Positions 6,291-28,350 of a DNA stretch of 51,559 nt are shown here, piece by piece. Under the pieces are notes generated by a model. The model ran no database searches. It was not told the DNA's origin and worked only from the letters and a program-made list of their open reading frames with translations. Positions within the stretch are counted from its first letter, which is position 1; each line of letters opens with the position of its first letter. The DNA is from Verrucomicrobium sp. BvORR034 (GTDB lineage: Bacteria > Verrucomicrobiota > Verrucomicrobiia > Verrucomicrobiales > Verrucomicrobiaceae): contig NZ_BATQ01000018.1 in NCBI RefSeq assembly GCF_000739635.1, positions 1 through 51,559 on the forward strand, in the 5' to 3' direction. The translations under genes and the position numbers were made by a program.

Positions 6291-7529
6291 ATGCGTCCTG
6301 GCTGGCATGCCAGGTTTCACCGGTTGATCGCCTGGCTCTATTTCGACCGCGTCACTGTGACAGGGCGGGAACATCTGCCCGGATCTGAGGAAGGCCCTGT
6401 GTTGTTTCTGTGCCTGCACCGGAACGGCGCGGTGGATGCATTTGTCTATCACGCCCTCCTGGCCCCCACCCGGTTCATGGTATCGGTGCAACTGTGCCGG
6501 AGCTGGTTTGGGCGGCTGTTCTTTTCCGGGATCGAAGTGGTGAGGGACAAGGATCGGGCCAAGACGCCGGACGCAGACCGGATCAACCAGCAGGCCATGC
6601 AGGAATGCCAGGACCTGCTTGCGCGAGGGGGGCGGCTGACGATTTTCCCAGAAGGCACCAGCACGCTCGGCCCCCGGCACCTTCCCTTCCGGGCGGGGGC
6701 TTCACACCTGATCCTGGAGCACTTAAAAGCAGGGCGCAGTGACCTGAAGATCATCCCCTTGGGCATCCACTATGAAGAGCCCAGCCTCTTCCAGCGCCGC
6801 GTCGAGGTGGTCATCGGGCCGCCAGTGTCGCTGGATTTCGAGGAGTCAACTTCAGACCGCCGCCGGCTTCTCGCCATCAAGGAGCGTACCTCGGCCGCTC
6901 TGGAAGTCGTTGGCATCAATGTCGCGACGGAGCAGGAACAGGAGGATGTTCAGCACATCGCCTTCGCCCTCACCTTGGGGACGCAGCACGAGTACTTTGC
7001 CATGATGAAGCGGCTGGAGCGCGGCATCCCGGCCCCGATGCTGGAAGCCTGGCGTGCTTTTCAGCAGGCCATCCGCGACCGGCAGGCCGCCATGCCCGGC
7101 CTGCCGTTGGTGTTGTATCAAGGCATACCTCTTTTCCCCATCAAACCTGTGCCGGTGTACGTCACCGCGTTCTTCCTCTTTGGCACGCTCTGGTTCCCAG
7201 GGGTGTGGCTCAATCTTCCACCGTTGCTGCTGGGGTGGCTGGCCGCCCGGAAAATGGCCGATGATCTCAATGTGGTCAGTCTGTGGAAGATCATGGTGGG
7301 TGTGCCCGCCTTCCTCCTTTGGGGTGCCCTGGTGGTGCTGATCGCCCTGCTCAGCGGGCACCCAGCCTTTGCTCTGATGTACGTCGTGGCAACCCTTGTT
7401 TCCCAACAACTCACCCATCGTTTTCAGAAGGTGGCCATCGCCGTCAACAATGCCCTCCGGCATCCGGAACTGCGACGCCAGGCGCTTGTGTTTCACGAAC
7501 AATTGATTCGGGAGGTTGACCGCTCATGA
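6291..7529 (+). CDS. PlsC-type 1-acyl-glycerol-phosphate acyltransferase family protein
   Basis: 412 residues. The N-terminal half is a PlsC acyltransferase domain: LCLHRNGAVDA (H43, D49), an acceptor-site stretch around FFSGIEVVRD, and IFPEGTSTLG (E121, G122). These enzymes acylate lysophosphatidate or a related lipid on the inner face of the membrane. The His and Asp here are separated by five residues rather than the usual four of HX4D. The C-terminal half adds two or three hydrophobic helices (about residues 285-365). An alternative ATG at 6189 would add 34 residues without recognisable domain content; 6291 is preferred because a purine-rich GAGGGCGA lies before it. The stop overlaps the start of the PAP2 gene by 4 bp, which suggests translational coupling. 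Confidence 0.82.
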   Translation: MRPGWHARFHRLIAWLYFDRVTVTGREHLPGSEEGPVLFLCLHRNGAVDAFVYHALLAPTRFMVSVQLCRSWFGRLFFSGIEVVRDKDRAKTPDADRINQQAMQECQDLLARGGRLTIFPEGTSTLGPRHLPFRAGASHLILEHLKAGRSDLKIIPLGIHYEEPSLFQRRVEVVIGPPVSLDFEESTSDRRRLLAIKERTSAALEVVGINVATEQEQEDVQHIAFALTLGTQHEYFAMMKRLERGIPAPMLEAWRAFQQAIRDRQAAMPGLPLVLYQGIPLFPIKPVPVYVTAFFLFGTLWFPGVWLNLPPLLLGWLAARKMADDLNVVSLWKIMVGVPAFLLWGALVVLIALLSGHPAFALMYVVATLVSQQLTHRFQKVAIAVNNALRHPELRRQALVFHEQLIREVDRS

Positions 7530-8425
7530 CCCGGCTGGATTCCTGGAGAATCCTTCCCCATGAAATCGCCTTCGCCCTGTTCTGGATTTCTGGAACCGTG
7601 CGGCTGGTGATGAGGCAGGGGTGGGGGGGTGATGCGATTCTCTTTACCAGCCTTTTGCTGGTCAGCGGCGCGTTGATCCTGTTGTCACTCCGGCTGCCGC
7701 ACCGGCGGTGGACCATGTACCTGAGGCTCCTCTATTTCCCCCTGGCGATCAATCTGACCTATGCGGCCATCCGCACGGCTGTGCCTGCCATGACGACCCG
7801 TCGCTGGGACCTGGCTTTGCAAAAGTGCGATGAAACACTCCTCGGTGGGCACCCCTCCCTCTGGCTCCAGTCCTGGGTGAACCCTTGGGCTACGGAGATC
7901 CTCAGTTTTTGCTACCTCACCTTCTTCGCGGGCCTGCTGCTGAGCTGGATCCACTATTATCGTCGGGATCTCGGCCTTGCCCGCCTTTTCACGGCGGGAT
8001 TTTTCACCGTGTACGGGCTGGGATTTCTAGGTTATACCCTCATTCCTGCCGCTGGACCGCATTTGGACCCCGCTTTTGCCGCCCGCTACACCGTGCCGCT
8101 GGAGGGCTGGGTGTTCACCAAGTGGAATGCTGCCCTCGTGGAGGCGGGGAGCAACCGGGTGGATGTTTTTCCCAGCCTCCACACGGCGGTGACGGCATTT
8201 CTCCTGGGGTTTGACCGTCGCTTTGCACCCGGCCGATTCCGTCTTTGGCTGGTGCCTACCGTTGGCCTCTGGCTCTCCACCATCTACCTCCGCTACCACT
8301 ATGTAACGGACGTGATGGCTGGGTTTGCCCTGGCCGGCTTTGCCATCTGGCTGACCCGATACCTTCATGCCCCCGACCCACACCCGACATCCTCACGCCG
8401 ACATGAGCCTGCTGCTTCCATTTGA
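7526..8425 (+). CDS. PAP2-family membrane phosphatase/phosphotransferase
   Basis: 299 residues with about six transmembrane helices. The PAP2 active-site motifs are visible: VFPSLHTAVTAF (phosphate-binding PSxH with catalytic His), and RYHYVTDVMAGF, in which the second His and Asp complete the relay. The spacing and the wide first half resemble the PAP2_3 / inositol-phosphorylceramide-synthase-like group rather than small soluble PAP2 enzymes. Likely substrates are phosphatidate, prenyl phosphate or a head-group donor. The start overlaps the stop of the acyltransferase gene (ATGA), and its own end overlaps the next gene by 23 bp, so the three are very probably one transcript. Confidence 0.85.
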   Translation: MTRLDSWRILPHEIAFALFWISGTVRLVMRQGWGGDAILFTSLLLVSGALILLSLRLPHRRWTMYLRLLYFPLAINLTYAAIRTAVPAMTTRRWDLALQKCDETLLGGHPSLWLQSWVNPWATEILSFCYLTFFAGLLLSWIHYYRRDLGLARLFTAGFFTVYGLGFLGYTLIPAAGPHLDPAFAARYTVPLEGWVFTKWNAALVEAGSNRVDVFPSLHTAVTAFLLGFDRRFAPGRFRLWLVPTVGLWLSTIYLRYHYVTDVMAGFALAGFAIWLTRYLHAPDPHPTSSRRHEPAASI

Positions 8426-10919
8426 CGATCAACGCGCCACCCGGGTGGATCTCTGCGGGGGTAAAGGAGCCAACCTTGCCCTGCTCACGCAGAACGGGTT
8501 CCCGGTGCCCGCAGGCATGGTGGTGACCACCCTCGCGTACCAGGAGTTTGTATCAGGATTGGGGGAGGTGCTCGCCCAGGCCGCGGATCTCTCCGCCGAG
8601 GATCCGGTTCGCCTCCAGCAGGGCAGTGCACGCCTTAGGGAAGAGCTGTCCCTGGCACCTCTCCCGGAGGCCGTGGCAGCTGAGGTGCGCGAGGCCCTGG
8701 CCGCCCGCCCGGCAGGGCAGGCGTACTCGGTGCGTTCCTCCTCCAACCTGGAGGATCTGGCCAGTGCGGCCTTCGCCGGTCAGCACGACACCTTCCTCAA
8801 TGTGATTGGGCCAGACGAGGTGCTGGCGAAGATCAAGGCTTGTTTCCTCTCCCTCTGGCATGACCGCGCCATCGCCTACCGGCGGGAGCACGGCTTTGAC
8901 CACACGCACGCGAGCATGGCGGTGGTGATCCAGCAAATGGTCCCCTGCGACGTTGCCGGCGTGGCCTTCAGCATCAATCCTGTGAACGGCGATCTCGGCA
9001 CGATCGTGGTGGATGCCAACTACGGGCTGGGGGAGTCGGTCGTGAGCGGAGAGGCGGAGGTGGATCACTTTGAACTCGACAAAGCAACAGGTACGGTGAA
9101 GTCCCGCACGGTGGCCACCAAGTCCCACATGGTGGTTTCCTCAGACCAGGGCACGGTGGATCGTGTGGTGGACGGGGCCGCCGCATGTTGCGCCTGCTTG
9201 AGCGATGCGCAGCTTGCCGAGCTGGCGGCGCTCCTGGTCCGTGTGGAGCGGCACTACCGCTTTCCGCAGGACATCGAATGGGGCTTGCTCGGCGGCACGC
9301 TGCACCTGCTCCAGTCCCGACCCATCACCACCATCCCACCCAAGTGGACCCGGGACGAGTCCGCCGAGCGCTTTCCCAACGTCATCACGCCGCTCACCTG
9401 GGATTTTGTGGATGCCGGTTTCCACGAATCGCTGCACTATTCCTTCCGCCTCATGGACTACCCGGCGTTCCGCGGGAAGTGGTTCGCCAGCTTCGGCCAC
9501 TACATCTATGGCAACCAGAATGCCGTGCGGCTCTATGCGGGACGTACCCCTTTCCACTTCACCAACCTGGAGGATCTGCTGGGTCAGATGCCCCGGCTCC
9601 GGGAAGAATACCGTTGGGTACAGGAACTGCCGGTGACCTGGATGCGGGATCTCGATGGCTACCTCATCCGTTTGGGCGTGTTTTCCATGGTACCGCTTCA
9701 GGAGATGAACGAGACCGCGTTGTGGACGCATGTGAAGGAGGTAGTGGCGCATGGTGCGACCTACTTCCGGCCCAACATCGCCATCTCCATCACCCAGTCG
9801 GTGCTGTGCCGTCTGCTGCTGAAGCTGCTTGCTTACGTGGTCGGTGAGCAGGACGCGCGGCCCATGTTCGACACCCTCATGTCCTGGTGTGAGACCAAGA
9901 CCGGTCAGATCAATCGGGAGCTGTTTGAGCTGGCGCATCGAGCCCAGCAGAAGCCCACTCTGGCAATCTTGCTGAAGGAGGTTCCCTCGCGCGAGATCAT
10001 CGAGGACCATCTGCTCGAACCGTTCGAGGAGTTTAACGCCCAGTTTGAGCGCTTTCTCGAGAACCACGGACACCGTGAAATCGACTTTGATGCCTATCAG
10101 CCTCCATGGCGTGAGGCACCGTGGGTGGTCCTGGACAACCTCAAGATCATCCTTGCCTCACCCATGCATGCGGCTCCGGTGAAAAAGGAGCGGGAAATCA
10201 AGGTGGCGGCACAGCAGGCGGAGTTTCGTTTGTTCAGCAAGCTCCCGCAGGAGGCCCACTACTTCTTCTCTGAGATCCTCCGCCTGGCGCGGGCTTACAC
10301 AAGCCTGGATGATCTGGAGCACTACCAGACCACCCGGCTCAACCAGCCTTTGCGCATGGGATTGCGGGCGCTGGGGGATCGGCTCGTGGCGCGCGGCGTG
10401 TTGGAAGAGCCCATGGACATCTTCTATGCGCATGAGGCGCAGATTGAAACGGCGGTGCATGCGGGTAGCGGTACCGCCTGGCGACTGTTGGGAGAACAGG
10501 TCCGTGATCAAAAAGCCGCCTGCATGGCGGATGCCGCACGGGAGCCGGAGTGGAATCTGGGAGAGTCGGCTCCGGAACCTCTGGAAGACTCTGGTGACAT
10601 GACCGGCCTCGCTGGCAGTCCGGGAGAGTCAGAGGGCGAAGTCTTTCGCGTGTTGTCGGCTGACGACTTCGCGAAGTTTCCCAAAGGCGCGGTGTTGGTC
10701 GCTCACACCACGAGTCCGACCTGGACCCCGCTCTTCTATCTGGCCAGCGCGGTTATCACGGCCAGTGGTGGTCCGCTGTCCCACGGGGCGGTCACCGCCC
10801 GGGAGATGGGCATCCCGGCGGTCATGGCCGTGCGTGAGTGCCTCTCGCGGCTGACCAACGGGCAGCGGGTGCGGGTGGATGGTTCTCGAGGTCGCGTCAG
10901 GCTGGTGCAGGAAACTTGA
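8403..10919 (+). CDS. PEP-synthase-like dikinase with rifampin-phosphotransferase architecture
   Basis: 838 residues. Residues 1-315 are a PPDK-type ATP-binding domain: GGKGANLALL, YSVRSSSNLEDLASAAFAGQ, YGLGESVVSGE, and EWGLLGGTLHLLQSRPI. Residues about 320-740 are a largely helical middle region. Residues about 755-838 are the swivelling phosphohistidine domain with GGPLSHGAVTAREMGIPAV; the phospho-acceptor is H794. The C-terminal PEP/pyruvate TIM barrel of true PEP synthase is missing, and the His sits near the C-terminus. This is the order known for rifampin phosphotransferase (ATP domain, substrate domain, His domain). The enzyme would therefore transfer the beta-phosphate of ATP to a small molecule bound in the middle region. 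ATG 8403 is preferred over 8367 because the domain starts there. The substrate is unknown; genomic partners suggest a lipid or envelope compound. Confidence 0.85.
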   Translation: MSLLLPFDDQRATRVDLCGGKGANLALLTQNGFPVPAGMVVTTLAYQEFVSGLGEVLAQAADLSAEDPVRLQQGSARLREELSLAPLPEAVAAEVREALAARPAGQAYSVRSSSNLEDLASAAFAGQHDTFLNVIGPDEVLAKIKACFLSLWHDRAIAYRREHGFDHTHASMAVVIQQMVPCDVAGVAFSINPVNGDLGTIVVDANYGLGESVVSGEAEVDHFELDKATGTVKSRTVATKSHMVVSSDQGTVDRVVDGAAACCACLSDAQLAELAALLVRVERHYRFPQDIEWGLLGGTLHLLQSRPITTIPPKWTRDESAERFPNVITPLTWDFVDAGFHESLHYSFRLMDYPAFRGKWFASFGHYIYGNQNAVRLYAGRTPFHFTNLEDLLGQMPRLREEYRWVQELPVTWMRDLDGYLIRLGVFSMVPLQEMNETALWTHVKEVVAHGATYFRPNIAISITQSVLCRLLLKLLAYVVGEQDARPMFDTLMSWCETKTGQINRELFELAHRAQQKPTLAILLKEVPSREIIEDHLLEPFEEFNAQFERFLENHGHREIDFDAYQPPWREAPWVVLDNLKIILASPMHAAPVKKEREIKVAAQQAEFRLFSKLPQEAHYFFSEILRLARAYTSLDDLEHYQTTRLNQPLRMGLRALGDRLVARGVLEEPMDIFYAHEAQIETAVHAGSGTAWRLLGEQVRDQKAACMADAAREPEWNLGESAPEPLEDSGDMTGLAGSPGESEGEVFRVLSADDFAKFPKGAVLVAHTTSPTWTPLFYLASAVITASGGPLSHGAVTAREMGIPAVMAVRECLSRLTNGQRVRVDGSRGRVRLVQET

Positions 10920-10945
10920 GCATCAGGCACCCAAGTCTTGCAATC

Positions 10946-10975
10946 CCGGAAGGGGCGGGGCAGTATCCCTTCCGG
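10946..10975 (+). promoter_or_regulatory. Hairpin immediately before a start codon
   Basis: CCGGAAGGG (10946-10954) and CCCTTCCGG (10967-10975) are perfect complements with a 12-base loop. The stem ends one base before the ATG at 10977. It has no T-run, so it is not a classical terminator. In RNA it would hide the start region of the GYF_2 gene. Confidence 0.5.
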
Positions 10976-10976
10976 C

Positions 10977-11309
10977 ATGAACTGGTATTACTCAGTCGAG
11001 GGTCACGCGCTGGGGCCCGTAAACGAGGAGGCGCTGGAAAAGCTCGCCCTTGAAGGCGCGTTGGTGAAGGACACCTTGGTCTGGCGGCCGGAACTTGAGG
11101 AATGGGCTCCCTTGCAGAAACTGCATCCGGACCTGCTTGAGCGTGTGCGCCAAGCCCAGGAAAAGCCCGTGCCTGTGACAAAGGCCACCGCTCCAGTCCC
11201 GCTGAGCACGCCCTCCTCCAATGCTGCCGCAAACGGGGGTGCTCCAGGAGAATCCCACAAGGAGAAGCCGGGTCTCTTTGGACGACTTTTCGGACGCGAA
11301 AGGAATTGA
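10977..11309 (+). CDS. GYF_2 (DUF4339) domain protein, short
   Basis: 110 residues. Residues 1-55 are a GYF_2 domain: MNWYYSVEGHALGPV, then LVWRPELEEWAPLQKL. GYF-like domains bind proline-rich peptides in other organisms; in bacteria the role of DUF4339 is unknown and it is usually attached to membrane domains. Here the domain is followed only by a Pro/Ala/Ser-rich linker and a basic tail GLFGRLFGRERN. The N-terminal half is clearly paralogous to the next gene (MNWFYSENGQQKGPI...), pointing to local duplication. ATG 10977 is chosen because the domain begins there. Confidence 0.8.
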   Translation: MNWYYSVEGHALGPVNEEALEKLALEGALVKDTLVWRPELEEWAPLQKLHPDLLERVRQAQEKPVPVTKATAPVPLSTPSSNAAANGGAPGESHKEKPGLFGRLFGRERN

Positions 11310-11408
11310 GGATCAGGGCAGGTTTTTTGCTTTTCTCCACGGCTTCTCTCAGCGAGGGTGCATCCGCTCTTCACGCTTCTCCCAACCCAAGACAGATCCC
11401 GCCGACAC

Positions 11409-12272
11409 ATGAACTGGTTTTACTCTGAAAACGGACAACAAAAGGGCCCGATCTCCGACATGGAACTGACCACGCTGGTGCGTGGTGGGACCATTCCGAC
11501 CAACACGCTGGTTTGGAGGGAAGGTCTGCCAGACTGGCAGCCGCTCTCCCAAGTGCGGCCTGACCTTACTCAGGTGAGCCCCGCCACCCCCACCCTCGGT
11601 GGCGTGCCGGTGTATGACAAAGGGCTCCTCCTCCAGCAGATGCGGGAAGGCGTGGTCACCGAGGCCACCCATCCTGGGGCGATGGAGTACGTCGGCTTTT
11701 GGTGGCGCTTGCTGGCCCGGTTCATTGACTACATCGTGGTTTCCGTGGGGAGTTGCCTGCTTTTCCTGCCCATCGCATTTGGCTTGGGCATGGCGAGTGC
11801 CACTGGAGGAGACTCTGCCGGGACGGCAGGGATTCAGATCGTTGGGCAGCTGGTCATGAATTTCCTGCAACTGGTCATCTGGGCGGGCTACTACACCTGG
11901 ATGACGGGCAAATACAGTGCCACGCTAGGCAAGCTGGCTCTGGGCTTTAAGGTGGTCAATGCTGACGGTACCAAGCCGTCCTACCTCCGGTCGCTCGGGC
12001 GTTTTGCGGCGGACTATCTGCTCAGTGGCTTGATCTTGGGCATTGTGGTCTTCGTCTTGCTCATGCTGGTCATGGCCTTGGGTTTTGGCGGCTTCAGATC
12101 CCTCATGGAAAGCAATCGGGAAGCTTTCGCCGGCGGAATTGCCTTCGGCATGTTCGCTTCCATGTTCGTTGGCTTTCTGTTGGGTTCCTTCCCATGGTGG
12201 ATGGCGGCGTTCGATCCCGAGAAGCGTGCGTTGCATGACCGGGTCTGCGCGACCCGCGTGGTGCGCAAGTAG
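11409..12272 (+). CDS. GYF_2 plus RDD membrane protein
   Basis: 287 residues. An N-terminal GYF_2 domain (about 1-55, MNWFYSENGQQKGPI, LVWREGLPDWQPL) is joined to an RDD domain (about 95-285). The RDD part starts GFWWRLLARFIDYIVV, where the conserved Arg and Asp (R-x-x-D) are visible, has four hydrophobic helices, and ends with the family pattern ALHDRVCATRVV. RDD proteins are inner-membrane proteins, some tied to ion or solute transport; a specific function cannot be given. It is part of the membrane cluster that runs to 17599. Confidence 0.87.
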   Translation: MNWFYSENGQQKGPISDMELTTLVRGGTIPTNTLVWREGLPDWQPLSQVRPDLTQVSPATPTLGGVPVYDKGLLLQQMREGVVTEATHPGAMEYVGFWWRLLARFIDYIVVSVGSCLLFLPIAFGLGMASATGGDSAGTAGIQIVGQLVMNFLQLVIWAGYYTWMTGKYSATLGKLALGFKVVNADGTKPSYLRSLGRFAADYLLSGLILGIVVFVLLMLVMALGFGGFRSLMESNREAFAGGIAFGMFASMFVGFLLGSFPWWMAAFDPEKRALHDRVCATRVVRK

Positions 12273-12319
12273 CGCCGACCCTACTCCGGCCCTCCAAAGA
12301 AAAAACCCCGGCAGTGATC

Positions 12320-12973
12320 ATGGCCACCCTCCGCTGTACCAGTTGCGGCTACGCCATCCCCCAAGAAGCCTTCAAGGGGCGCGAAAGCGCCCCCTGTCCG
12401 CTCTGTGGGCGGGTGTCGCAGGCATGGGTCCTCCCGGCTTTGACTGCGGGTGCGGGAGTCAACCTCGCCGCCCCCCGGCCACCCTCGCTGCCGGATGATC
12501 CTCCCGGTCCGGGGGACAATGTTTGTTTCTACAACCCCGAGCGCCGGGCCACCACGTCCTGCAGCCACTGCGGTGTTTTCATTTCCGATGCCTGGGCAGC
12601 CCAGTGGGGAGGGGAGACCGTCTGTTTCAAGTGCCTGGACAATCTCCGGCTCAAGCGGCAGGACTCCCGTTTCCAGTCACGGCGCGTCCTTTGGGACAAC
12701 ATCGCCCTCCTGACGACCCTGGCCCCCTTCCTCCTCTGCATCCCATTGCTGCTGCTGGGACCGGTCGGGGTGGCGTTCATCGCCATGTGCGTCATGGTCA
12801 GTCTCATCACGGCCCCTACGGGATTGGGCTTGGCGATCTTCGCCTGGGGCAAGCCTCGCAGTCTGGTGCCTCGCGGCCGGGGGCGGGTAGTGTGGGCCGG
12901 GTTGTTGAGCCTCCTTCAGTGCGCGGCTTGGGTGGTGCTCTTCATCGCGCTTGTGTCCAAGAACTTTGATTGA
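12320..12973 (+). CDS. Double zinc-ribbon membrane protein
   Basis: 217 residues. The first zinc ribbon has C6-x-x-C9 and C26-x-x-C29 (RCTSCGYAI, CPLCGRV). A second, B-box-like cysteine cluster follows at about residues 70-115 (VCFYNPERRA, CSHCGVFI, VCFKCLDN). Two or three hydrophobic helices fill residues about 130-217. The layout of a cytoplasmic zinc module and a membrane anchor is shared with the gene at 14113. The function is unknown. The start is ATG 12320; an upstream GTG in the same frame adds two residues. Confidence 0.75.
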   Translation: MATLRCTSCGYAIPQEAFKGRESAPCPLCGRVSQAWVLPALTAGAGVNLAAPRPPSLPDDPPGPGDNVCFYNPERRATTSCSHCGVFISDAWAAQWGGETVCFKCLDNLRLKRQDSRFQSRRVLWDNIALLTTLAPFLLCIPLLLLGPVGVAFIAMCVMVSLITAPTGLGLAIFAWGKPRSLVPRGRGRVVWAGLLSLLQCAAWVVLFIALVSKNFD

Positions 12974-12981
12974 GTTGGCCG

Positions 12982-14079
12982 ATGAAGCAGTCATTTGACG
13001 ATTACAAACATCTGGCCGGCGGCACCGGCGGCAAGGGCAGCCTCTGGCAGGGGCCCGACCACCTGCTTGTGGTCGAGGGGCGGGGATTCATTCTCCCGTT
13101 TAGTGAGGTGTACCGCCGGGTGGACTATGACAAAATTCAAGCCCTGACTCTGGTCACCACGAAGTCTTACATCTGGGCTTCCATCGGCATGGGGCTCGCG
13201 GCGGTGTTCTTTCTTGGGCTGGCGTTTCTCAGTCGTGATGAGGAGCCGTTTCTCCCGATTTCTCTGGTCATCCCGGGAGTGATGCTCACGGTTCTGTTGC
13301 TGATCAATATGTTCCGCGGGCGCACCTGCCGTTGCTCCCTCCAGACGGCCGTGCAGGTCCTGCGGTTGAAGCCACTGGTCCGCGTGCAAAAGGCGGAACC
13401 CGTCATGCGTCTTCTGGAGGATCTCTGTCGCAGGCAGCAGAGCAATCTGGTGTCCGCCTCGTTTTTCCCAGCCCAACCCGGTGCGGAGTCTGCAGCCGCT
13501 TTGCCTCTGCCTCCTCCCTTGCTACCAGGGGCCTCCATCCCGGGCGGCAAACCTCCCTGGCAGGGCAGCAACTGGACCTTTTTCACCGGGCTCCTCATGC
13601 TCCTGTGGGGACCCGCGCTGGCAGCAGAGCTTTTTGTTCCGGGGCTGGCGCTCACCATCTCCAGCGTGGTACTCGGCACCCTGATCACGGTCTTGGGCAT
13701 CATCGGCCTCGTTCACGCGTCCCGCTACCGGACCCCTGGCACCTTGCTGACGTGTCTTTGGGCGAATCTCGTGGTGGATTTGCTGGCCGGGTTGGGCATG
13801 TACATTCTGGCGATCGCGGCGGTCATGCACCAGGGGATGAACAATCCCGAAGATATGTTTGGCAAGAAGGCGGTTGGCAACGAGCGCATCCTCTCTTTCC
13901 TGGCCGACTACTCCATGGAGCAGTGTGAGCCCTGGGGCTGGGGTCTGGTGATGTTGGGGGGCTTGATCCTCATTTTGGGCTTGAGTATTGTCGTGTACGG
14001 TGGGCGGGGTCGCCGGCTCGCTCCGGAAGCTCTCGCCACTCCTCCTCCGGTGCCGCCCCCCTTGGATCCAGCTGCCTAA
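12982..14079 (+). CDS. Multi-pass membrane protein of unknown function
   Basis: 365 residues. An N-terminal soluble part (about 1-55, LLVVEGRGFILPFSEVYRRV) resembles a PH-like beta domain. Two helices follow at about 60-110, then a Pro-rich linker (about 170-195), then four more hydrophobic helices to residue 350 and a Pro-rich tail ending VPPPLDPAA. No family was recognised. The ATG at 12982 is 8 bp after the preceding stop, so the genes are probably translated from one mRNA; a TTG at 12970 is a less likely start. Confidence 0.7.
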   Translation: MKQSFDDYKHLAGGTGGKGSLWQGPDHLLVVEGRGFILPFSEVYRRVDYDKIQALTLVTTKSYIWASIGMGLAAVFFLGLAFLSRDEEPFLPISLVIPGVMLTVLLLINMFRGRTCRCSLQTAVQVLRLKPLVRVQKAEPVMRLLEDLCRRQQSNLVSASFFPAQPGAESAAALPLPPPLLPGASIPGGKPPWQGSNWTFFTGLLMLLWGPALAAELFVPGLALTISSVVLGTLITVLGIIGLVHASRYRTPGTLLTCLWANLVVDLLAGLGMYILAIAAVMHQGMNNPEDMFGKKAVGNERILSFLADYSMEQCEPWGWGLVMLGGLILILGLSIVVYGGRGRRLAPEALATPPPVPPPLDPAA

Positions 14080-20683: not shown

Positions 20684-23353
20684 ATGAAGCCCGCCGCCCC
20701 CTCCAATTCCCCGGCCCCATCCGCCACAGACAAGGTGCGCAGCCTGTTGAGTGCCAAGCAGTGGCGCAAAGCTCGTGATGAGGCGAAGCAGGGTTGCAAA
20801 GCAGACAAAGCGACATTCCTGCCGTTGTTGATTGAGGCCAATACGGGGTTGGCCTTGGAGATGATCTCCAAGAAGCAGATTTCGGAAGCGGAACAGGTGA
20901 TTTCCTACCTCGCAACGATCGCTCCCAAGGAGATCGTCGATTTACTGAAGAAGGAAATTGTCGCGCAAAAGGAGAGCCTGGCGGGAGCGACTCCTGCCCC
21001 ACCGCAGGCTTCCGCATCGGTTCGCCTTCCCACATTGGATGAGGTGACAGCACTGGCCTCAAAACTCAGTTCAGGAGAGGAGATTGCTTCTTCTGATTGG
21101 AACCGTATTGATGCCTGGGTGGCAGAGGCGCTGTCGAGGAGTCTCCCGACCCTGAAGGAGGGTTCCTCCCAGATTCTTCAGGATTTGATTGCGATAGGGC
21201 GCGCAGTGGAGGCCGTGGGCAACGGTGACTTTCCCGCAGCGCAGGATCTCTTGCGTCCTCTGTCGCTGAAGTCTGCGTTGCAGCATTGGAAGTCGTTCCT
21301 GCGGGCGGTCGTCTTCACGCACCAGGGAGAGAACGAAAAAGCCATCAAAGGATTCAGCACGCTGACGGCTTCCGCGTTGCTGACCAAGGCCTCAGTGCCT
21401 TACCTCTCCCTATTGAAGGCACCGGCGGCGGAGGGTGCCAAGCCGTCTGATGAGCAGCTTGCATTTGGCCTCCTCGCTCTGACGGGAGGGGACCCCGGGT
21501 GGGCCCCTTCCGTGGCAAAGGCGGAATCTCACTGGATCAAAGGCGAAGCGTCCCGCGCGTATCATGCTCTGCGCAATGGCGCGAAAGGCAAGTTTCCGAC
21601 CATTGTTCCGAATGTGGCCGGCACGCTCACGGATCAGGTGTTTGCCACCGGGGAGCTAAGTGATGATCGGCGGGATCAACTGCTGGTTGCAGTTTTGGAT
21701 GACCTGCCAAAGGCGCTTGTCCGTCCCAAGGAGGCCTTGGCCTTGCTGCGGAGTGTCATGTTGAACTTGGACTTCCTGAAGGAAACTGACATTCCGACGG
21801 TTTTCGAGACCTATGTTCGGGTCTGGAAGGCCGAGGGAGGGTTGTCGCCTGAGACTGAGGCTCTGGCCCGGGTATGGATGGCAGAGAAGTGGGCGGATGA
21901 GGCCATGGTGCCATCGCAGATTCCCGGTCAATTTAGAATTCTGATGCGCAACCCCAAGGCTGCCCACGCCGAGTTTGAAAAGGCCATTCGGCTCCGGCCG
22001 GATTGGGTGAAGCCCTATCTGGGGTTGTGCCGGGTCTTGGAGAGGGTAGAGGGAGATTCTTTCAAGCGGCAGGAGCTTCTTGAAGGGATGTGCCAGCGGT
22101 TCGAGGAAGACAAGGGCGTGCTGGTGCTGGCTGCTGAGTTGGACCTGGAGTTGAAGAACTTCTCGAGGGCGCTGGCCAGTCTGGAGAAAGCGCTGCGGTT
22201 GGATCCCCTCGACACCCGTCTGCAGGAAGATGTGGTGTTTGCCAGGGCGGGTTACATCATAGATAGAGAGGGGAAAGCCTCTCCAGATGAATGGGCCGGT
22301 GTGGAACCTCTTTTGGTGAACGAGGCCAAGGTCCAGACGCGGTCCCGGTGGTGCATGCGGTTAATCCAAGGGGCAGGCCATCAACGGGGCAGCTTCGCGG
22401 CGGTCCGTGAAGAGGGCATAGCCCTGGCACCCCATCCTCTGGTGGCGGTCTATTTCGAGCAGATGTTCTGCATTTGCTTCGTTTTACCTGCGCCCAAGGA
22501 CAACGCCGCGCGCTGGAAGGCGGCGCTCCCTACTGTGAAGTCTGAAACCATCATCCAGTTGCTGGATGTCTTTGAGTATTGGGTCTTGCGACGCAAGTCT
22601 CCCGGCACGATGGGGCAGCTTCGGAAGCCTCTGGAGGCTGCCATGTCAGCAGTGAAATTTAAAACGGAGTCCCCCGAAGCCGTGCTGAGACTGGCTGATG
22701 CCCTGGTGTCGCACGTGACCAGAGACAAGAAGGATGACAAGTTCAAGGAGCTGTGCGACTACCTGATTTTCCTCCTGCACAAGCGTTTCCTTTCGAAAGA
22801 GCACAGGCCAAAAGCAGACCCTCGCTTGAGACTTGCTGTAGCTGTCCTGGACGATTTGCGTTGTTTCAGCGGAACGGTTTACGAGCCGGAATTTTATCTG
22901 GAACAGCTGGCGAACGATGCCACTGCGGCAGGTCTGCCGGTGGTGGCTGAGAGGGCTCGCAAGCTGCGGCACAAGGTGGAGGAGCTTCACTCCAAAAGAA
23001 GGGGAGGCTTTGACGATCCGATATTCGAGGTCATTCCGTCAGGACCGGACGGCTATGAGGATGACGGGGGGCTTTCCAATGACGACATCCGTGGGTTTAT
23101 GGATATCATCCTCCAGATCAAGGGTACCCATCCACGCGATGTTGCCGCCTTCCGGAAGCGGGTGATCAAAGAGGGCGTGATACCGGTCGAGATGTTTGAC
23201 TTGCTGGTTGACTTCGCCAAGCATAGCTCAGACGAGGAACTCGCCGAAATCATGATGGGTGGGGACGACGATGAAGATGAGTCCGACCCTCTGCCCAGCA
23301 AGCCGAAGGGGCGTGGAAAGGTCGCCCATCCTGACCAGCTCGACTTGTTCTAA
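20684..23353 (+). CDS. Large TPR-like protein, first gene of an Hsp70 operon
   Basis: 889 residues, almost entirely helical. TPR-like helix pairs are clearest at about 430-530 (AHAEFEKAIRLRPDWVKPYL, and FSRALASLEKALRLDPLDTR). The C-terminal region has an acidic stretch (DDDEDESD) and ends in DQLDLF. QLDLF is a perfect match to the consensus of bacterial sliding-clamp-binding peptides, although this may be chance. The next gene, a J-like protein, starts 23 bp downstream. The role is probably as an adaptor or client-recruiting factor for the downstream Hsp70 (inference). ATG 20684 (MKPAAPSNSPAPS) is preferred over 20642. Confidence 0.72.
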   Translation: MKPAAPSNSPAPSATDKVRSLLSAKQWRKARDEAKQGCKADKATFLPLLIEANTGLALEMISKKQISEAEQVISYLATIAPKEIVDLLKKEIVAQKESLAGATPAPPQASASVRLPTLDEVTALASKLSSGEEIASSDWNRIDAWVAEALSRSLPTLKEGSSQILQDLIAIGRAVEAVGNGDFPAAQDLLRPLSLKSALQHWKSFLRAVVFTHQGENEKAIKGFSTLTASALLTKASVPYLSLLKAPAAEGAKPSDEQLAFGLLALTGGDPGWAPSVAKAESHWIKGEASRAYHALRNGAKGKFPTIVPNVAGTLTDQVFATGELSDDRRDQLLVAVLDDLPKALVRPKEALALLRSVMLNLDFLKETDIPTVFETYVRVWKAEGGLSPETEALARVWMAEKWADEAMVPSQIPGQFRILMRNPKAAHAEFEKAIRLRPDWVKPYLGLCRVLERVEGDSFKRQELLEGMCQRFEEDKGVLVLAAELDLELKNFSRALASLEKALRLDPLDTRLQEDVVFARAGYIIDREGKASPDEWAGVEPLLVNEAKVQTRSRWCMRLIQGAGHQRGSFAAVREEGIALAPHPLVAVYFEQMFCICFVLPAPKDNAARWKAALPTVKSETIIQLLDVFEYWVLRRKSPGTMGQLRKPLEAAMSAVKFKTESPEAVLRLADALVSHVTRDKKDDKFKELCDYLIFLLHKRFLSKEHRPKADPRLRLAVAVLDDLRCFSGTVYEPEFYLEQLANDATAAGLPVVAERARKLRHKVEELHSKRRGGFDDPIFEVIPSGPDGYEDDGGLSNDDIRGFMDIILQIKGTHPRDVAAFRKRVIKEGVIPVEMFDLLVDFAKHSSDEELAEIMMGGDDDEDESDPLPSKPKGRGKVAHPDQLDLF

Positions 23354-23376
23354 ATCTTCCAACCCCCTGTTGACTC

Positions 23377-23679
23377 ATGAATCCCTATCTTGAACTGGGT
23401 GTCACCGAAAACGCGGGTGACGAGGAAATACGCCTCGCGTATGTGAAAGGCATCCAGACGCGTTCTCCAGAAAACGATCCGGAAGGTTTTCAGCTGCTGA
23501 ACGCGGCTTATGAACGCATCCGCACGTCTGAGCTGAGGGACATGTGGCGGCTTTTCCGGGACGCTGCCCCGGGGGCTTCGCTCTTGGATGCCCTGGCCCG
23601 CTACCTTCAACAACCCGGAGTGGCCCGGCCCATGCCCGCCGCCCAGTTCAAGCAGTACCTCCGTCTTTGTGCCAAATGA
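23377..23679 (+). CDS. J-domain-like protein lacking the HPD motif
   Basis: 100 residues. Residues 3-50 follow the J-domain helix pattern: NPYLELGVTENAGDEEIRLA, then YVKGIQTRS, then GFQLLNAAYERIRT. The HPD tripeptide that triggers Hsp70 ATP hydrolysis is absent; the equivalent loop reads RSPENDPEGF (about 29-38). The last 50 residues are a small helical extension. The position between a TPR gene and a grpE gene supports a co-chaperone role. The stop overlaps the start of the grpE gene (ATGA), which indicates translational coupling. Confidence 0.75.
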   Translation: MNPYLELGVTENAGDEEIRLAYVKGIQTRSPENDPEGFQLLNAAYERIRTSELRDMWRLFRDAAPGASLLDALARYLQQPGVARPMPAAQFKQYLRLCAK

Positions 23680-24401
23680 ATCCTTCTTTTCCCCTTCCTC
23701 ACGGATCCGATGTTGATCCGGAAAGTTCCTCTGCTGGTGTCGAGTGGAAGTCGGCCCTGCGTGCGGAGTTCGAAACCTGGCTTGAGTCTGTCGATCAATT
23801 GGCTGAGCCGGAGGCGGATGACATTGCAGCTGCTGAGGAGGCACCCAGCCTGAGATCCTTCTACGAGCAACTCACCACTGCAACCACGGAGTGGCGTCGC
23901 TCGGGGCGCCGCACGGCTGATGTGCTCGCCCGGCTGGGCGACTCGCTCTCCGCCCTGGGTGAGGAGACCCGCCAGTTGCGTTTGCAACGATCTCAGGAGG
24001 AGCAGGGAGATGCGCTCCCCTCAGACTGGTGTCTGGCGCTGATCGAGACGGCCGACAAGATCCGGCGCATCCAAACCGCTTTCGATAGCCCTCCTCAAGT
24101 GTCTCCCACCTGGTGGCCTTCCGCCCGTGCCGGCCTGCAGACCTGGCGCAATGCGTGGCAGGTCCAGGGCGAAGCCTTCGCGATTCTGTCCGGGCATGTG
24201 GACGGACAGTTGAGGAAGGCCGGGCTGGAAAGGATCGTCACTCAAGGCCGGATCCTTGACCCAGCCGTGATGACCGCCGTCAGCGTGACTGTGGACGGAT
24301 CGGTGCCCGATCAGACGGTGATCGAGGAAATATTACCCGGTTACCAGAGGGGCGGTCAGCTTGTCCGCGCCGCCCAGGTCCGGGTCTCCCGCTCCGCATA
24401 G
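23676..24401 (+). CDS. GrpE-type nucleotide exchange factor
   Basis: 241 residues. The N-terminal 100 residues are acidic and predicted helical, as expected for the GrpE stalk. The C-terminal beta domain has the GrpE landmarks: GRILDPAVMTAVSV (compare FDPxxMxAV), VPDQTVIEEILPGY, and LVRAAQVRV. GrpE proteins release ADP from Hsp70. It is divergent from canonical GrpE in the middle segment and may be specific to the Hsp70 encoded next. The start ATG 23676 overlaps the preceding stop. The gene ends 22 bp before the Hsp70 start. Confidence 0.82.
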   Translation: MNPSFPLPHGSDVDPESSSAGVEWKSALRAEFETWLESVDQLAEPEADDIAAAEEAPSLRSFYEQLTTATTEWRRSGRRTADVLARLGDSLSALGEETRQLRLQRSQEEQGDALPSDWCLALIETADKIRRIQTAFDSPPQVSPTWWPSARAGLQTWRNAWQVQGEAFAILSGHVDGQLRKAGLERIVTQGRILDPAVMTAVSVTVDGSVPDQTVIEEILPGYQRGGQLVRAAQVRVSRSA

Positions 24402-24423
24402 AACCCCTCAGGAAATTTACATC

Positions 24424-26184
24424 ATGTACGAAGTTATTGCAGGCATTGACCTTGGAACCACGAACTCCGCCGTTTGCGTGGTGGAAGACGGCGCGCCTCG
24501 AATCCTTCCCGTTCACGGCCAGCCCACGATGCCAAGTGCCGTGGGGCTGGACCCCACCGGGAAACTCATCGTGGGGCAGGCCGCCAAGAATCAGCAGATC
24601 TCTGCTCCAGAGCGCACCATCACCTCCATCAAGAGGCTCATGGGAGAGGACACGAAGGTCACGCTGGGTGACCGGGAGCTTTCTCCAGAGGAGGTCAGTG
24701 CGCTGATCCTTAAGGAGCTGAAGCTGGCCGCTGAGACAGAGCTGGGGGTGCCGGTGAAAAAGGCGGTGATCACGGTGCCGGCGTTCTTCAATGAGCGCCA
24801 GCGCAAGGCCACCCAGGTTGCGGGGGAGCTGGCCGGTCTGGATGTCGTCCGGATCATCAACGAACCCACTGCGGCAGCGCTCGCCTATGGGGCCGGCCGT
24901 CAGGAAGGGGAGACCATGCTGGTTTATGACCTGGGCGGCGGCACCTTCGATGTCTCTCTGGTGCGCGTGGAATCCGGGGTGGTCGAGGTGAAGGCCAGCC
25001 ATGGAGACACCCATCTGGGCGGCGATGACTTTGATGAGGAGCTTGTCCGGCTTGCCTCGGAGCGTTTTCGCTCGCGGCACCGCACGGAAGGCGAGCTCCC
25101 TGATCTGGTGCGGAGGCGGCTGAAAGGCACCATGGAGTCCGCCAAGATCCGCCTGTCTGAAGAAACCTTTGTTCAAGTGCAGGAGGAGTATTTGCAGGCC
25201 GGTCAGCACCTCGACACAGAGGTGTCACGCGCTGAGTACGAGGAAATGATCGAGCCCTGGCTGGAGAAGACGCTGACCTGCCTGCACAGCACGTTGCGTG
25301 ACGCGGGCATGACCAGCGCGGAGGTGGGCAAGATCATGCTTGTGGGCGGAGCCACACGGACGCCGGCGGTGCAGGATTTGCTCAGAGAGCGGCTGGGACT
25401 TGAGGCTCATTTTGAGATCAACCCGGATCTCATCGTCGCCATGGGGGCGGCTGTCCAGGGGGCCATCATCGCCGGGCAACCGCAGCGGGCCATTCTGGTG
25501 GACATCACTCCACATAGCTACAGCGTGGCGGTGCTGGATCAAAACGTGCAGCACAGCTTGGTCTGTGATCCGATCGTGAATCGGAACACGCCTCTTCCCG
25601 CAAAGCGGGCCAAGACTTTCTACACCCTGATCCCCGGCCAGAAAGAGGTGAATGTGGAGGTGTATCAGGGGGAGAGCGCGTTGCCCGAGGGCAATCTCCT
25701 CGTGGGAGATTTCGTTGTGTCCGGGCTTTCTCCCACTGCCCCGGAAGACAGTCCCATCATTGTAGAGTTTCACCTGGACCTCAACGGGATGCTCAAGGTC
25801 ACCGCCACGGAGAAAAGCACGCGGCTTGCCAAGACGGTGGTGCTGGATACGCGAGGACAGCACCTGCTCGACCTGAAAGCTGCCCGGGCCAATCTGGAGA
25901 GTTACTATGACGCAATCGCTGGAGATTCCGCCGAAGAGGATGGGCACTTCGACGGCGCAGACGAGGAGGACAGCGATTTGAATCAGGCGTCCTTGCTTGC
26001 TACGGCAAAATCCCTTCAGCAGCGCGCTGAGTTGCTATTGGACAAAGGTGTGTCCGATGATGACGCCGGTGAGATCCGACGCCTGCTGGATCTCATTGGT
26101 ACCGCGATCACAGGCCAGGAGTGGAGTCTGCTATCGAAGCATTCTGACGCCTTGGGCGACGTCCTGTTTTACCTCGAAGATTGA
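24424..26184 (+). CDS. HscC-like Hsp70 chaperone
   Basis: 586 residues. The ATPase domain (1-360) has the Hsp70 signatures GIDLGTTNSAV (7-17), LVYDLGGGTFDVS (166-178), NEPTAAALAYG and MLVGGATRTPAV (305-316). The substrate-binding beta domain follows (about 370-490). The C-terminal lid is short and acidic, and the EEVD-like tail of DnaK is missing. Length and lid shape fit HscC-type Hsp70 rather than DnaK. An AGGAAA ribosome-binding site lies 8 bp before ATG 24424, unusually clear for this window. It is the core of an operon with its own TPR, J-like and GrpE partners. Confidence 0.9.
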   Translation: MYEVIAGIDLGTTNSAVCVVEDGAPRILPVHGQPTMPSAVGLDPTGKLIVGQAAKNQQISAPERTITSIKRLMGEDTKVTLGDRELSPEEVSALILKELKLAAETELGVPVKKAVITVPAFFNERQRKATQVAGELAGLDVVRIINEPTAAALAYGAGRQEGETMLVYDLGGGTFDVSLVRVESGVVEVKASHGDTHLGGDDFDEELVRLASERFRSRHRTEGELPDLVRRRLKGTMESAKIRLSEETFVQVQEEYLQAGQHLDTEVSRAEYEEMIEPWLEKTLTCLHSTLRDAGMTSAEVGKIMLVGGATRTPAVQDLLRERLGLEAHFEINPDLIVAMGAAVQGAIIAGQPQRAILVDITPHSYSVAVLDQNVQHSLVCDPIVNRNTPLPAKRAKTFYTLIPGQKEVNVEVYQGESALPEGNLLVGDFVVSGLSPTAPEDSPIIVEFHLDLNGMLKVTATEKSTRLAKTVVLDTRGQHLLDLKAARANLESYYDAIAGDSAEEDGHFDGADEEDSDLNQASLLATAKSLQQRAELLLDKGVSDDDAGEIRRLLDLIGTAITGQEWSLLSKHSDALGDVLFYLED

Positions 26185-26191
26185 ATGCCCC

Positions 26192-26512
26192 ATGCCTGTG
26201 CGCTCCATCACCTGCCCTGCCTGTGGCAAGTTCAACGAGATCGAGGATGCCAACCTCGCCTGCCGTCGTTGCAGTACGGACTTGGAGCCTCTCCTGAGCC
26301 TGGATGCTGCGGCCGCAGGATTGCGACTTCTGGGAGCCCAGGCCCTCCGCCAGCAGCAGCCTGAAGAGGCTCTTGCGCTGGCGGGGCAGGCGTGGGAATT
26401 GAGCCCCAGCCGCGCCGCCGCCCAGGTGGCAATCCTCGCGTCGGTGGGATGCCGGGACTGGGAGGGGCTGATGTGCTGGAGACAGCGTCTCGCAGCCCTG
26501 TCAGGTGCTTAG
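26192..26512 (+). CDS. Zinc-ribbon protein with TPR-like tail
   Basis: 106 residues. A zinc ribbon is formed by C8-x-x-C11 and C24-x-x-C27 (TCPACGKFNE, LACRRCSTDL). The rest is helical with Ala/Leu-rich repeats (GAQALRQQQPEEALALAGQA) resembling one or two TPR units. It starts 7 bp after the Hsp70 stop, so it is probably the last gene of the chaperone operon. The function is unknown; a metal-bound adaptor is a reasonable guess. Confidence 0.75.
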   Translation: MPVRSITCPACGKFNEIEDANLACRRCSTDLEPLLSLDAAAAGLRLLGAQALRQQQPEEALALAGQAWELSPSRAAAQVAILASVGCRDWEGLMCWRQRLAALSGA

Positions 26513-26530: not shown

Positions 26531-27304
26531 TTACAGCCGCACGGGGATGCCCTTGCTGGCCAGGTGGCGCTTCACATCGCCCACCGTGTACTCACCGAAG
26601 TGGAAGATGCTCGCGGCGAGCACGGCGTCAGCCTTGCCCTCCTGGAGGACATCCACCATGTGATCGAGATTGCCTGCGCCGCCGCTGGCAATCACGGGGA
26701 TGGTGACGGCTTCGCTCACGGCCCGGTTCAGGGGGAGGTCGTAGCCTGCCTTGGTGCCGTCAGCGTCCATGCTGGTGAGGAGAATTTCGCCCGCACCACG
26801 GCGGCAGGCCTCGGCGGCCCATTCCACGGCATCGATTTCCTGGCCATCCCGCAGGGCCAGTTTGCGTCCACCGTGGGTGTACACGGACCATGAACCCCGG
26901 TCATTGCGCTTGGCGTCGATGGCGACCACGAGGGCTTGGCAGCCGAAAGCGGCAGCGCCTTCGTCGATCACACCCGGATTAAAAAGCGCTGCGGTATTCA
27001 AACTGACTTTGTCGGCACCTGCCAGCAGCATCGTGCGCATGTCAGCCACGGTGCGGATGCCTCCGCCCACGGTAACGGGCATGAAGCAACGCTCGGCGGT
27101 GCGTTCTACCACATCAATGATCGTGCGTCTTTCATCACTGGAGGCCGTGATGTCCAGGAAGACCAGTTCGTCCGCCCCCTGGTCATTGTAGGCCACCGCA
27201 CACTCGACCGGGTCCCCGGCATCACGCAGTTCCAGGAACTTGGTGCCTTTGACGACGCGGCCGTTGTTGACGTCCAGGCAGGGGATGATGCGCTTCGTGA
27301 GCAT
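26531..27304 (-). CDS. hisF: Imidazole glycerol phosphate synthase cyclase subunit HisF
   Basis: 257 residues, a normal HisF length. The TIM barrel begins [20 protein letters not shown] with catalytic D11. The second catalytic Asp is D129 in [10 protein letters not shown]. Phosphate-binding segments [10 protein letters not shown] and [13 protein letters not shown] are complete. With HisH it converts PRFAR plus ammonia to imidazole glycerol phosphate and AICAR, in histidine synthesis. No other his gene lies next to it. The open frame runs 57 bp further upstream, but the conserved start is MLTKRI at 27304. Confidence 0.97.
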
Positions 27305-27393
27305 GAGAGACGGGTGGGAAAAGGGGAAAGGTTGAATATCTTGGTTAGACCAGATTGGCAAAAAAGCGAATCCTGCGAGAAGATGGGGCCGTC

Positions 27394-28350
27394 ATGGCCA
27401 CCGCTGTCCCCAGAAAGTCAGGCAAAAAAGAGGCTCCTACCCGTCGGGTGCCTGAGGGCATGGAGCGGTCGGAACTGGAGATGGACTTTCTCACATTCAT
27501 GGAGGTGGAACGGTCAGCCTCTCCCAAGACGTTGGAGAACTACCGGCATGCCATGAGTACGTTCCGGAAGAGTCAGCCGGCGAGCATGACGTGGGAGGCG
27601 CTCACCCCGGACGACTTTCGCCTTTATCTGTTTGAGCAGATGAAGGCGGAACTGGGCCGTTCCACCATCCGTCTGCACTTCGCCGCCCTACGGTCATTCT
27701 TCAAGTTTCTGACGCGCCGTCGGGGCCTCATCAAGAATCCTCTCCTAGAGGTGCAACTTCCCAAGCTCGAGAAGAAGCTGCCGGTGGTGCTGACGTTGAG
27801 CCAGGTGGAAACGCTGCTGAATCTGCCCCTGAACACTCCTCGTGAAAAGCAGGCTCCTGCGTGGGCTCCAGAGCGGGATGCGGCCATTCTGGAGCTGTTC
27901 TACAGCACCGGTGTTCGTATCAGTGAGCTGGCCTCCCTGAACGTGGAGGACGTGGATGTGTACTCGGAGACCCTTCGAGTGATCGGGAAGGGCAGGAAGG
28001 AGCGCATCTGCCCCGTGGGTGGTCCCGCCATCCGGGCGATGCAGCGGTATCAAAGCCGTCTGGGAGTGTATTCAGGCCCTCTCTTTCGCAGCAAGGTGGG
28101 CAAGCGCATGACGAATCAGGCCATCAACAACGTGGTGGAAAAGTACTGGAAACTCTCCGGTCTGCCCGTGCAGGTGACGCCTCACAAGCTACGGCACAGC
28201 TTTGCCACGCATTTGCTCAACAATGGCGCGGACCTGCGCAGCGTGCAGACCCTCCTGGGTCATGCCAGCCTGAGCACCACGCAGATCTACACTCACGTCA
28301 CCACTGAGCGGATGAAAGAAGTGTACGAAGATGCTCATCCTCGGGCATAA
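27394..28350 (+). CDS. XerC/XerD-type tyrosine recombinase
   Basis: 318 residues. The N-terminal SAM-like core-binding domain is at about 24-115. The catalytic domain has all six expected residues: R175 (STGVRISEL), K199 (GKGRKE), H264 and R267 (HKLRHSFATHLL), H290 (LLGHASLSTT) and nucleophile Y299 (QIYTH). The length and sequence fit host XerC/XerD, which resolve chromosome dimers at dif, better than phage integrases. XerC and XerD cannot be separated here. It is divergent from hisF with a 90 bp gap. The ATG at 27394 is preferred over TTG 27355, which would make the N-terminus longer. Confidence 0.9.
   Translation: MATAVPRKSGKKEAPTRRVPEGMERSELEMDFLTFMEVERSASPKTLENYRHAMSTFRKSQPASMTWEALTPDDFRLYLFEQMKAELGRSTIRLHFAALRSFFKFLTRRRGLIKNPLLEVQLPKLEKKLPVVLTLSQVETLLNLPLNTPREKQAPAWAPERDAAILELFYSTGVRISELASLNVEDVDVYSETLRVIGKGRKERICPVGGPAIRAMQRYQSRLGVYSGPLFRSKVGKRMTNQAINNVVEKYWKLSGLPVQVTPHKLRHSFATHLLNNGADLRSVQTLLGHASLSTTQIYTHVTTERMKEVYEDAHPRA

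Follow-up and report, generated by a model that had tools for sequence, protein, structure and literature searches.

The window analysed here is a stretch of 51,559 nucleotides from Verrucomicrobium sp. BvORR034 (contig NZ_BATQ01000018.1), and its positions 20684-26512 hold five open reading frames (ORFs), arranged head to tail on the plus strand, for a large tetratricopeptide repeat (TPR) protein, a short J-domain protein, a GrpE-family protein, an Hsp70 and a small zinc-ribbon protein. It is well supported that this cassette encodes a dedicated Hsp70 machine, and its Hsp70 belongs to a clade apart from DnaK/HscA and from HscC. The fuller reading, in which this machine is organized on the TPR protein as a scaffold and is tethered to the sliding clamp in this and some other lineages, appears to us evenly balanced; the tether is predicted from a clamp-binding type of peptide at the C-terminus of the TPR protein, and would apply to the lineages that have this tail. 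The most specific version falls just short of that balance, and proposes a new Hsp70 clade whose machine, complete with J protein, GrpE, zinc-ribbon adaptor and TPR scaffold, would be brought to the clamp by the scaffold tail and would remodel replication or repair proteins bound there.

Five genes for one Hsp70 system

The TPR gene (20684..23353, plus strand) encodes the proposed scaffold, a protein of 889 amino acids (aa) predicted to form a large TPR solenoid with the C-terminus HPDQLDLF; an alternative TTG start at 20642 gives a longer ORF. It is followed on the same strand by the genes for the J protein (23377..23679, 100 aa), for GrpE (23676..24401, 241 aa), for the Hsp70 (24424..26184, 586 aa, with the C-terminus DVLFYLED) and for the zinc-ribbon protein (26192..26512, 106 aa, with weak TPR similarity). 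The junctions, in gene order, are a 23-bp gap, a 4-bp overlap (ATGA, between the J and GrpE genes), a 22-bp gap and a 7-bp gap, in agreement with an earlier reading made from the sequence only, which had described five genes in one direction with overlaps or gaps of at most 23 bp. Across 42 loci with a cassette-type GrpE, from seven bacterial groups, all five genes are found in 28, spanning five of the seven groups, and the order proposed for a conservation check is kept across phyla.

Pfam and NCBIfam assign the TPR protein, GrpE and the Hsp70 securely. The J protein scores 22.6 bits against Pfam DnaJ, under the cut-off of 27.8. The profile of its family, in turn, matches solved J domains with a best E of 9e-12, including the DnaK-bound E. 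coli J domain (5nro_B) with 3e-8. In the AlphaFold model the J-domain helices are present, with pLDDT above 90 over residues 1-50, and the 50 Foldseek matches listed for this model are mostly J domains (best E 0.29, probability up to 1.00). GrpE is recognized by Pfam with 51 bits (E 1.8e-13, cut-off 25.8) over residues 102-238, which correspond to the C-terminal part of the helix and the beta domain, and its family profile matches the solved GrpE structures 4ani (3e-23) and 1dkg (9e-17). Profile searches thus relate both proteins to their families, and the earlier claim of a self-contained Hsp70 system with its own J protein and GrpE is supported.

Judged from profiles and alignment, the J domain is real, and the protein is J-only and resembles the DjlB/DjlC type. 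The alignment places Ser-Pro-Glu (codons 23464..23472, plus strand) at the position of the HPD motif in the window, and the histidine of this motif is missing in all 40 alignable cassette J proteins, one further row being gapped at this position. Proline (28), serine (11) or threonine (1) takes the first position, proline (31) or alanine (9) the second, and glutamate (18), aspartate (13) or histidine (9) the third, which is equivalent to D35; an acidic residue is therefore present in 31 of the 40 proteins, and the pattern [PST]P[DE] also describes 31 of 40, with SPE in the window. According to the passages of PMC13254874 used here, HPE, as found in DjlB and DjlC, is seemingly the sole tolerated change of HPD. 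The sequence-only reading had called this protein a degenerate J; this holds to the extent that it is a J-domain protein that has lost the HPD histidine, and falls short in that the protein resembles the DjlB/DjlC type and is not merely degenerate.

Histidine at the third position is a property of the cyanobacterial branch (PAH), where R167 of the Hsp70 is replaced by glutamine in all three cases measured, while the arginine is kept in 25 of 27 cases where the J protein has aspartate or glutamate. In DnaK, R167 meets the aspartate of the HPD motif. The covariation of the two positions is suggestive but, being confined to one clade, is not a statistic.

The Hsp70 of the window is recognized by Pfam HSP70 with 462 bits, above the cut-off. 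In a tree of 65 rows, the 31 cassette Hsp70s form one group (support 90/84, and 93% of 200 bootstrap trees), from which DnaK/HscA separates at 100/100, as do the 12 HscC rows (E. coli HscC and 11 Hsp70s of HscC-like loci from the family of the window), also at 100/100; long branches (L076 and E. coli HscC) leave its deepest nodes uncertain. The tree and the residue counts leave out a near-copy (L041), two incomplete Hsp70s (L220 and L202) and the loci that do not have exactly one Hsp70 ORF (L068, L204, L212, L221, L223, L224, L226 and L227). K70, T199 and the linker aspartate D393 are each present in all 31 cassette Hsp70s, and the J-contact residue R167 is kept in 26, N170 in 29 and T173 in all 31. 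The stretch of the GrpE signature (DnaK 288-296) is found at its full length in 25 of the 31, and with five of nine positions in the other six, the window included; the HscC rows have two or three of the nine positions in 12 of 12. Given that the cassette Hsp70s keep this loop and form a clade of their own, the description "HscC-like" in the sequence-only reading does not amount to membership of HscC, and that label was rejected.

Three bacterial Hsp70 types, DnaK, HscA and HscC, are distinguished in the passages used here of a 2021 review (PMC8215388), where HscC is thought not to use GrpE. The GrpE-signature loop of the cassette Hsp70s fits a protein that uses the co-encoded GrpE, in contrast to HscC. 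The deletion corresponding to DnaK 76-101 occurs in all 31 cassette Hsp70s and also in 9 of 17 DnaK rows, and the first loop region of the substrate domain spans 34-35 positions in 27 of 31 cassette Hsp70s and in 11 of 12 HscC rows, versus 26 in all 17 DnaK rows. None of the 31 carries a tail of DnaK length after the lid. The C-termini of the cassette Hsp70s are conserved, with [LIVM][FY][YF] within the last 12 residues in 32 of 37 (VLFYLED in the window); of the five without it, four come from ORFs that are broken or cut. From family membership, gene neighbourhood and contact positions that are in part retained, we infer that the J protein would load and stimulate the Hsp70, and that the co-encoded GrpE would eject ADP.

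The zinc-ribbon protein has weak Pfam matches and contains the pattern C-x2-C...C-x2-C. A protein with this pattern starts at most 150 bp after the Hsp70 gene in 30 of the 42 loci, versus 0 of 158 ends of other ORFs in the same loci that served as control; the count of 30 is a lower bound, since the script missed the zinc ribbon of L222. This protein, with its zinc ribbon and weak TPR similarity, may act as an accessory adaptor.

The TPR protein and its C-terminal tail

The TPR protein is recognized by Pfam TPR_2 (30.5 bits, 3e-7, above the cut-off), and comparison of the TPR proteins of the window group with those of the cassettes of two other groups by hhalign gives 99.2% and 98.3%, which indicates that the cassette TPR proteins are very divergent yet homologous. 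AlphaFold predicts an all-helical protein with poor confidence (mean pLDDT 57, with 412 of 889 residues below 50). Among the Foldseek matches listed for this model, most are TPR scaffolds, with TM-scores normalised to the TPR protein of at most 0.23, and matches of a model of such low confidence would speak for a TPR solenoid and for nothing further.

The last five residues before the stop codon are QLDLF (codons 23336..23350, plus strand), a peptide of the type that binds the beta sliding clamp. The published clamp-binding motifs are Q-phi-x-[LM]-[FL] and Q-phi-x-[LM]-x-[FL]; in the passages of PMC11139829 used here, QLDLF is the strongest clamp peptide, LQLELDF is the commonest in phage display, and several clamp motifs are located in C-terminal tails. 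The likeness was first noted on four TPR proteins, of which the C-terminus is poorly conserved except for a final DQLDLF or DQLELF, and further members of the family were then set as a test. Of 41 cassette TPR tails, 8 contain the published motif within their last 12 residues, versus 2 of 1409 control ORFs (4 of the 1409 when the last 20 residues are taken); from its rate inside the bodies of the TPR proteins, 0.15 matches were expected. The control ORFs were picked greedily from all loci of at least 5 kb, with a length of at least 150 aa, and include spurious ORFs. The eight matching tails come from the genus of the window (three) and from L042, L071, L189, L190 and L195, and the tails of the cassette proteins include QLDLF, QLELF, QLTLDF and QLILDF. 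An extended motif, allowing F or I at position 4 and I at the end, is found within the last 12 residues of 13 of the 41 tails versus 6 of the 1409 control ORFs (15 of 1409 within the last 20); it was shaped after the tails had been seen, as was one earlier pattern, and the published motif is preferred for this reason. In the genome of 8.6 Mb, the pattern QL[NDSG]LF followed by a stop has a single match, which carries no weight alone because the reversed pattern, used as control, gave three chance matches.

Two further versions of the idea were rejected. The clamp motif is not a trait of the whole family, given that cyanobacterial tails finish with GFQELF or a similar sequence and that nothing comparable is present in many others. 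A shift of the motif to another subunit was not seen either, the published motif being nowhere in the C-terminal 20 residues of the J, GrpE, Hsp70 and zinc-ribbon proteins.

The sequence-only reading had proposed the TPR protein and the zinc ribbon as likely selectors of clients or targets; for the TPR protein, the beta-clamp-type C-terminal peptide, a feature absent from that reading, is a concrete candidate for the means. In the mechanism proposed here, the large TPR protein would be the scaffold that holds the machine together and chooses its work site, and its flexible C-terminus would dock in the peptide-binding pocket of DnaN in this and some other lineages. Docking would put the machine on DNA that is being replicated or repaired, where it could remodel the clamp complex or proteins bound to the clamp. 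Branches with another kind of tail, the cyanobacteria for example, probably have another target.

Several observations weigh against this reading. The published motif is missing from 33 of the 41 tails, among which are all nine of the cyanobacteria, those of the two Paracraurococcus copies and that of Moorella, and three of the eight matches belong to one genus. L193, L194 and L199 have no version of the motif in their tails, while their close sibling L198 has the extended form QLEIEF. The motif is likewise absent from the ends of the other four proteins, as described above, and the idea of the tail arose from the data, though the pattern that was counted is the published one. The tail (residues 859-889) has pLDDT below 50, but its predicted disorder lends the reading little, because the whole model of the TPR protein is poor. 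As for the machine itself, the GrpE loop of the Hsp70 of the window has only five of nine positions, E264 is replaced by R in 23 of 31 and R56 by N in 28 of 31 cassette Hsp70s, and positions 31, 34, 187, 206 and 326 vary among them; these belong to a list of positions that we take to be contacts of DnaK. The joint change of the J motif and R167 is confined to one clade and could have arisen only once, and in two rows from Myxococcota Q167 is paired with D.

In a second explanation, possible but in our judgement doubtful, the Hsp70 machine is indeed scaffolded by the TPR protein while the QLxL(D)F tail binds the Hsp70 of the cassette, the zinc-ribbon protein or a client, with no link to replication. 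Most loci keep the genes and have no clamp motif, the neighbouring genes in the window have no clear replication link, and the conserved C-termini of the Hsp70s, beside a TPR protein, make docking peptides within the machine plausible. The docking of the EEVD C-terminus on TPR domains in eukaryotes offers a parallel. Against this explanation, the tails match the published clamp consensus, including the preferred pentamer and hexamer, across lineages where the identity of the TPR proteins is about 17-25%.

The cassette matters beyond this locus in that it looks like a fourth, scattered group of bacterial Hsp70s with a complete private set of partners. Its further features are a J motif that has no histidine and, in part of its range, the predicted clamp hook. 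If the hook is real, it would open a direct route to asking what a specialised Hsp70 does, and no earlier case of a chaperone machine positioned at the sliding clamp is known to us. Term searches of open-access literature gave no account of the five-gene set or of a clamp-binding chaperone; the nearest systems described there are DnaK2 of Myxococcus xanthus, which has its own GrpE, and the DnaK1-DnaJ3 pair of cyanobacterial pilus motors.

Distribution of the cassette and of other Hsp70-linked loci

Across the 42 loci, the J gene is found in 41, the Hsp70 gene in 37, an upstream ORF of at least 450 aa in 36 and the zinc ribbon in 30. The loci with all five genes belong to the genus of the window, to the cyanobacteria and to the phyla of Paracraurococcus, of the Myxococcota seed and of the Desulfobacteraceae seed, and in one of them (L204) the TPR protein and the Hsp70 are each counted as two pieces. 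The Moorella locus has no zinc ribbon and the Parachlamydiaceae contig has no long TPR gene. A less biased picture is given by the 28 loci found via the GrpE profile alone (L187-L204, L209-L212 and L222-L227), where the TPR gene lies upstream in 25, the J gene is present in 27, the Hsp70 gene lies within 3.5 kb in 23 and the zinc ribbon is present in 21; in this subset L204 is a second copy in a seed genome, and L202 and L212 end at contig ends. Among the cyanobacterial loci, L223 and L224 have the TPR, J and GrpE genes and no Hsp70 within the stretch taken, L227 has J and GrpE only, and in L222 the GrpE and Hsp70 genes are separated by about 2 kb.

In the family of the window, an Hsp70 at least 55% identical is found in 4 of 59 sampled genomes: its own, two congeneric ones (identities of 97% and 92%) and a genome from a different genus (56%). 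The order TPR, J, GrpE, Hsp70 is the same in all these loci; the two congeneric ones also share the zinc ribbon and the flanking genes with the window, and L042, from the other, more distant genus, has no zinc ribbon after the Hsp70. In the window the cassette is followed by a hisF-like gene (26531-27361, minus strand) and a gene for a XerC-like recombinase (27355-28350), with names read from the sequence, and both are found again at the two congeneric loci. In its own phylum, the Verrucomicrobiota, an earlier four-row GrpE profile found the genome of the window as the sole convincing match among 387; three further matches (52-57 bits) are short and C-terminal and were not counted; a full-length dnaJ is the neighbour of two of them, and an ORF with a J domain that of the third. 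When the TPR protein itself was used as query against 288 genomes, it matched only itself.

A scan of a genome collection with two short patterns, which is not a census, placed at ranks 1-5 and 7 among the matches listed the cassettes of Paracraurococcus, a Magnetococcales, Moorella stamsii, a Myxococcota, a Desulfobacteraceae and a Parachlamydiaceae bacterium. A wider survey used a ten-row GrpE profile, with an E of at most 1e-28 defining the cassette type and with genomes put in phyla via named seed records. It found the cassette type in 16 of 398 genomes of the Paracraurococcus phylum (two of them seeds), 4 of 188 of the phylum of the Myxococcota seed (one seed), 5 of 198 of that of the Desulfobacteraceae seed (one seed) and 1 of 199 of the Moorella phylum (the seed itself). 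In the phylum to which a Gastranaerophilales genome belongs, the cyanobacterial phylum of GTDB, the count was 6 of 194. All six seed genomes examined contain a further GrpE, a weaker match that presumably represents the housekeeping protein.

Some copies stand out in their structure or context. Paracraurococcus has two cassettes, the second of which (L204, G440:C467:1-11000) has the TPR and Hsp70 ORFs each in two pieces. One Acaryochloris strain has three plasmid copies, L068 (pMB01), L220 (pMB03) and L221 (pMB02), in which the TPR, GrpE or Hsp70 ORFs are partly split or incomplete, and which are possibly decaying. In the Myxococcota cassette L073, an ORF of 1388 aa (6358-10524) begins 3 bp after the zinc-ribbon gene.

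The sporadic distribution would speak for a mobile or conflict module, for instance one that protects or manipulates the replication of a plasmid or phage, as opposed to a housekeeping or stress system of the cell. All five genes, in unchanged order, are present on a Nostoc plasmid, and the first four on one from Acaryochloris, with TPR and Hsp70 each as two ORFs. Some of the plasmid copies have broken frames, and the genome of the window holds another cluster in which Hsp70 and GrpE accompany a NACHT NTPase and a double-GTPase. We nevertheless consider a mobile or conflict module improbable, given that three species of the window genus share the location and the neighbours of the cassette, and that copies also occur on multi-megabase contigs of cyanobacteria (L222 and L225 with Hsp70, L223 without). 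No known anti-phage defence system was recognized either, PADLOC giving two weak partial matches only (E 1.8e-4 and 6.8e-3) among 8 proteins.

Other Hsp70-linked loci were seen alongside the cassette. The second special Hsp70 cluster of the same genome (L054, G000:C171:55000-69702, at 1806-12424 on the minus strand) consists of a NACHT NTPase, a GrpE-family protein, two tandem divergent Hsp70s, a double-zinc-ribbon protein of 999 aa and a double-GTPase (DO-GTPase2), and has the look of a cluster of the conflict type equipped with a GrpE of its own. At L055 (G000:C160:77000-94000, 6712-13167, minus strand), an FHA protein of 1633 aa, with a weak C-terminal GrpE match below the cut-off, is encoded directly upstream of an Hsp70-like protein of 516 aa. 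In the family of the window, L043-L046, L048-L053 and L058 contain a separate unit of an Hsp70 adjoining a J protein; the ten Hsp70s of these units that were placed in the tree are all in the HscC clade, and the five J proteins read have R-P-[DE], for example HRPDQDPEGF.

Relation to known chaperone systems and clamp ligands

E. coli HscC confers resistance to UV and cadmium by a mechanism described as unknown in the passages of PMC8215388 used here. That the cassette is an HscC-type stress chaperone operon, acting as HscC does with DjlB and DjlC, is highly improbable: the J proteins are alike (HPETDPQGF versus SPENDPEGF in the window) and both Hsp70s have the 76-101 deletion and the longer first loop region of the substrate domain, but this deletion is shared with about half of the DnaK rows, the cassette Hsp70s form a separate clade, have a GrpE loop and are encoded together with a GrpE, a factor that HscC is thought not to need (PMC8215388), and HscC-with-J two-gene units are a different type of locus within the same family. 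The common features are the J signature xPE...DP.GF..L..AYE and the two traits of the Hsp70, and the dedicated GrpE sets the cassette apart. Unlike DjlB and DjlC, the cassette J protein is short, J-only and has S, P or T in place of the histidine, and the HscC region of E. coli has Sel1-repeat and DUF1266 genes where the cassette has a TPR scaffold and a zinc ribbon.

The canonical grpE-dnaK-dnaJ operon likewise encodes Hsp70, J protein and GrpE together, and differs in its gene order and Hsp70 clade, in its full-length DnaJ with HPD and in the long tail of DnaK. DnaK2 of Myxococcus xanthus (MXAN_6671/6672) is also a paralogous Hsp70 that adjoins a GrpE gene, and is described as a two-gene unit in the passages of PMC11019930 used here. 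A specialised Hsp70-J pair acting at one cellular machine is known from the cyanobacterial DnaK1-DnaJ3-GrpE of type IV pilus motors; in the corresponding passages of PMC9239167, dnaK1 and dnaJ3 are not described as a cassette, and the genome is said to hold a single GrpE. Among the ligands of the beta clamp, Pol II, Pol IV and Pol III alpha carry a clamp-binding peptide in a C-terminal tail, according to the passages of PMC11139829 used here. Those ligands are DNA polymerases, whereas here the predicted motif would belong to the TPR protein of a chaperone operon.

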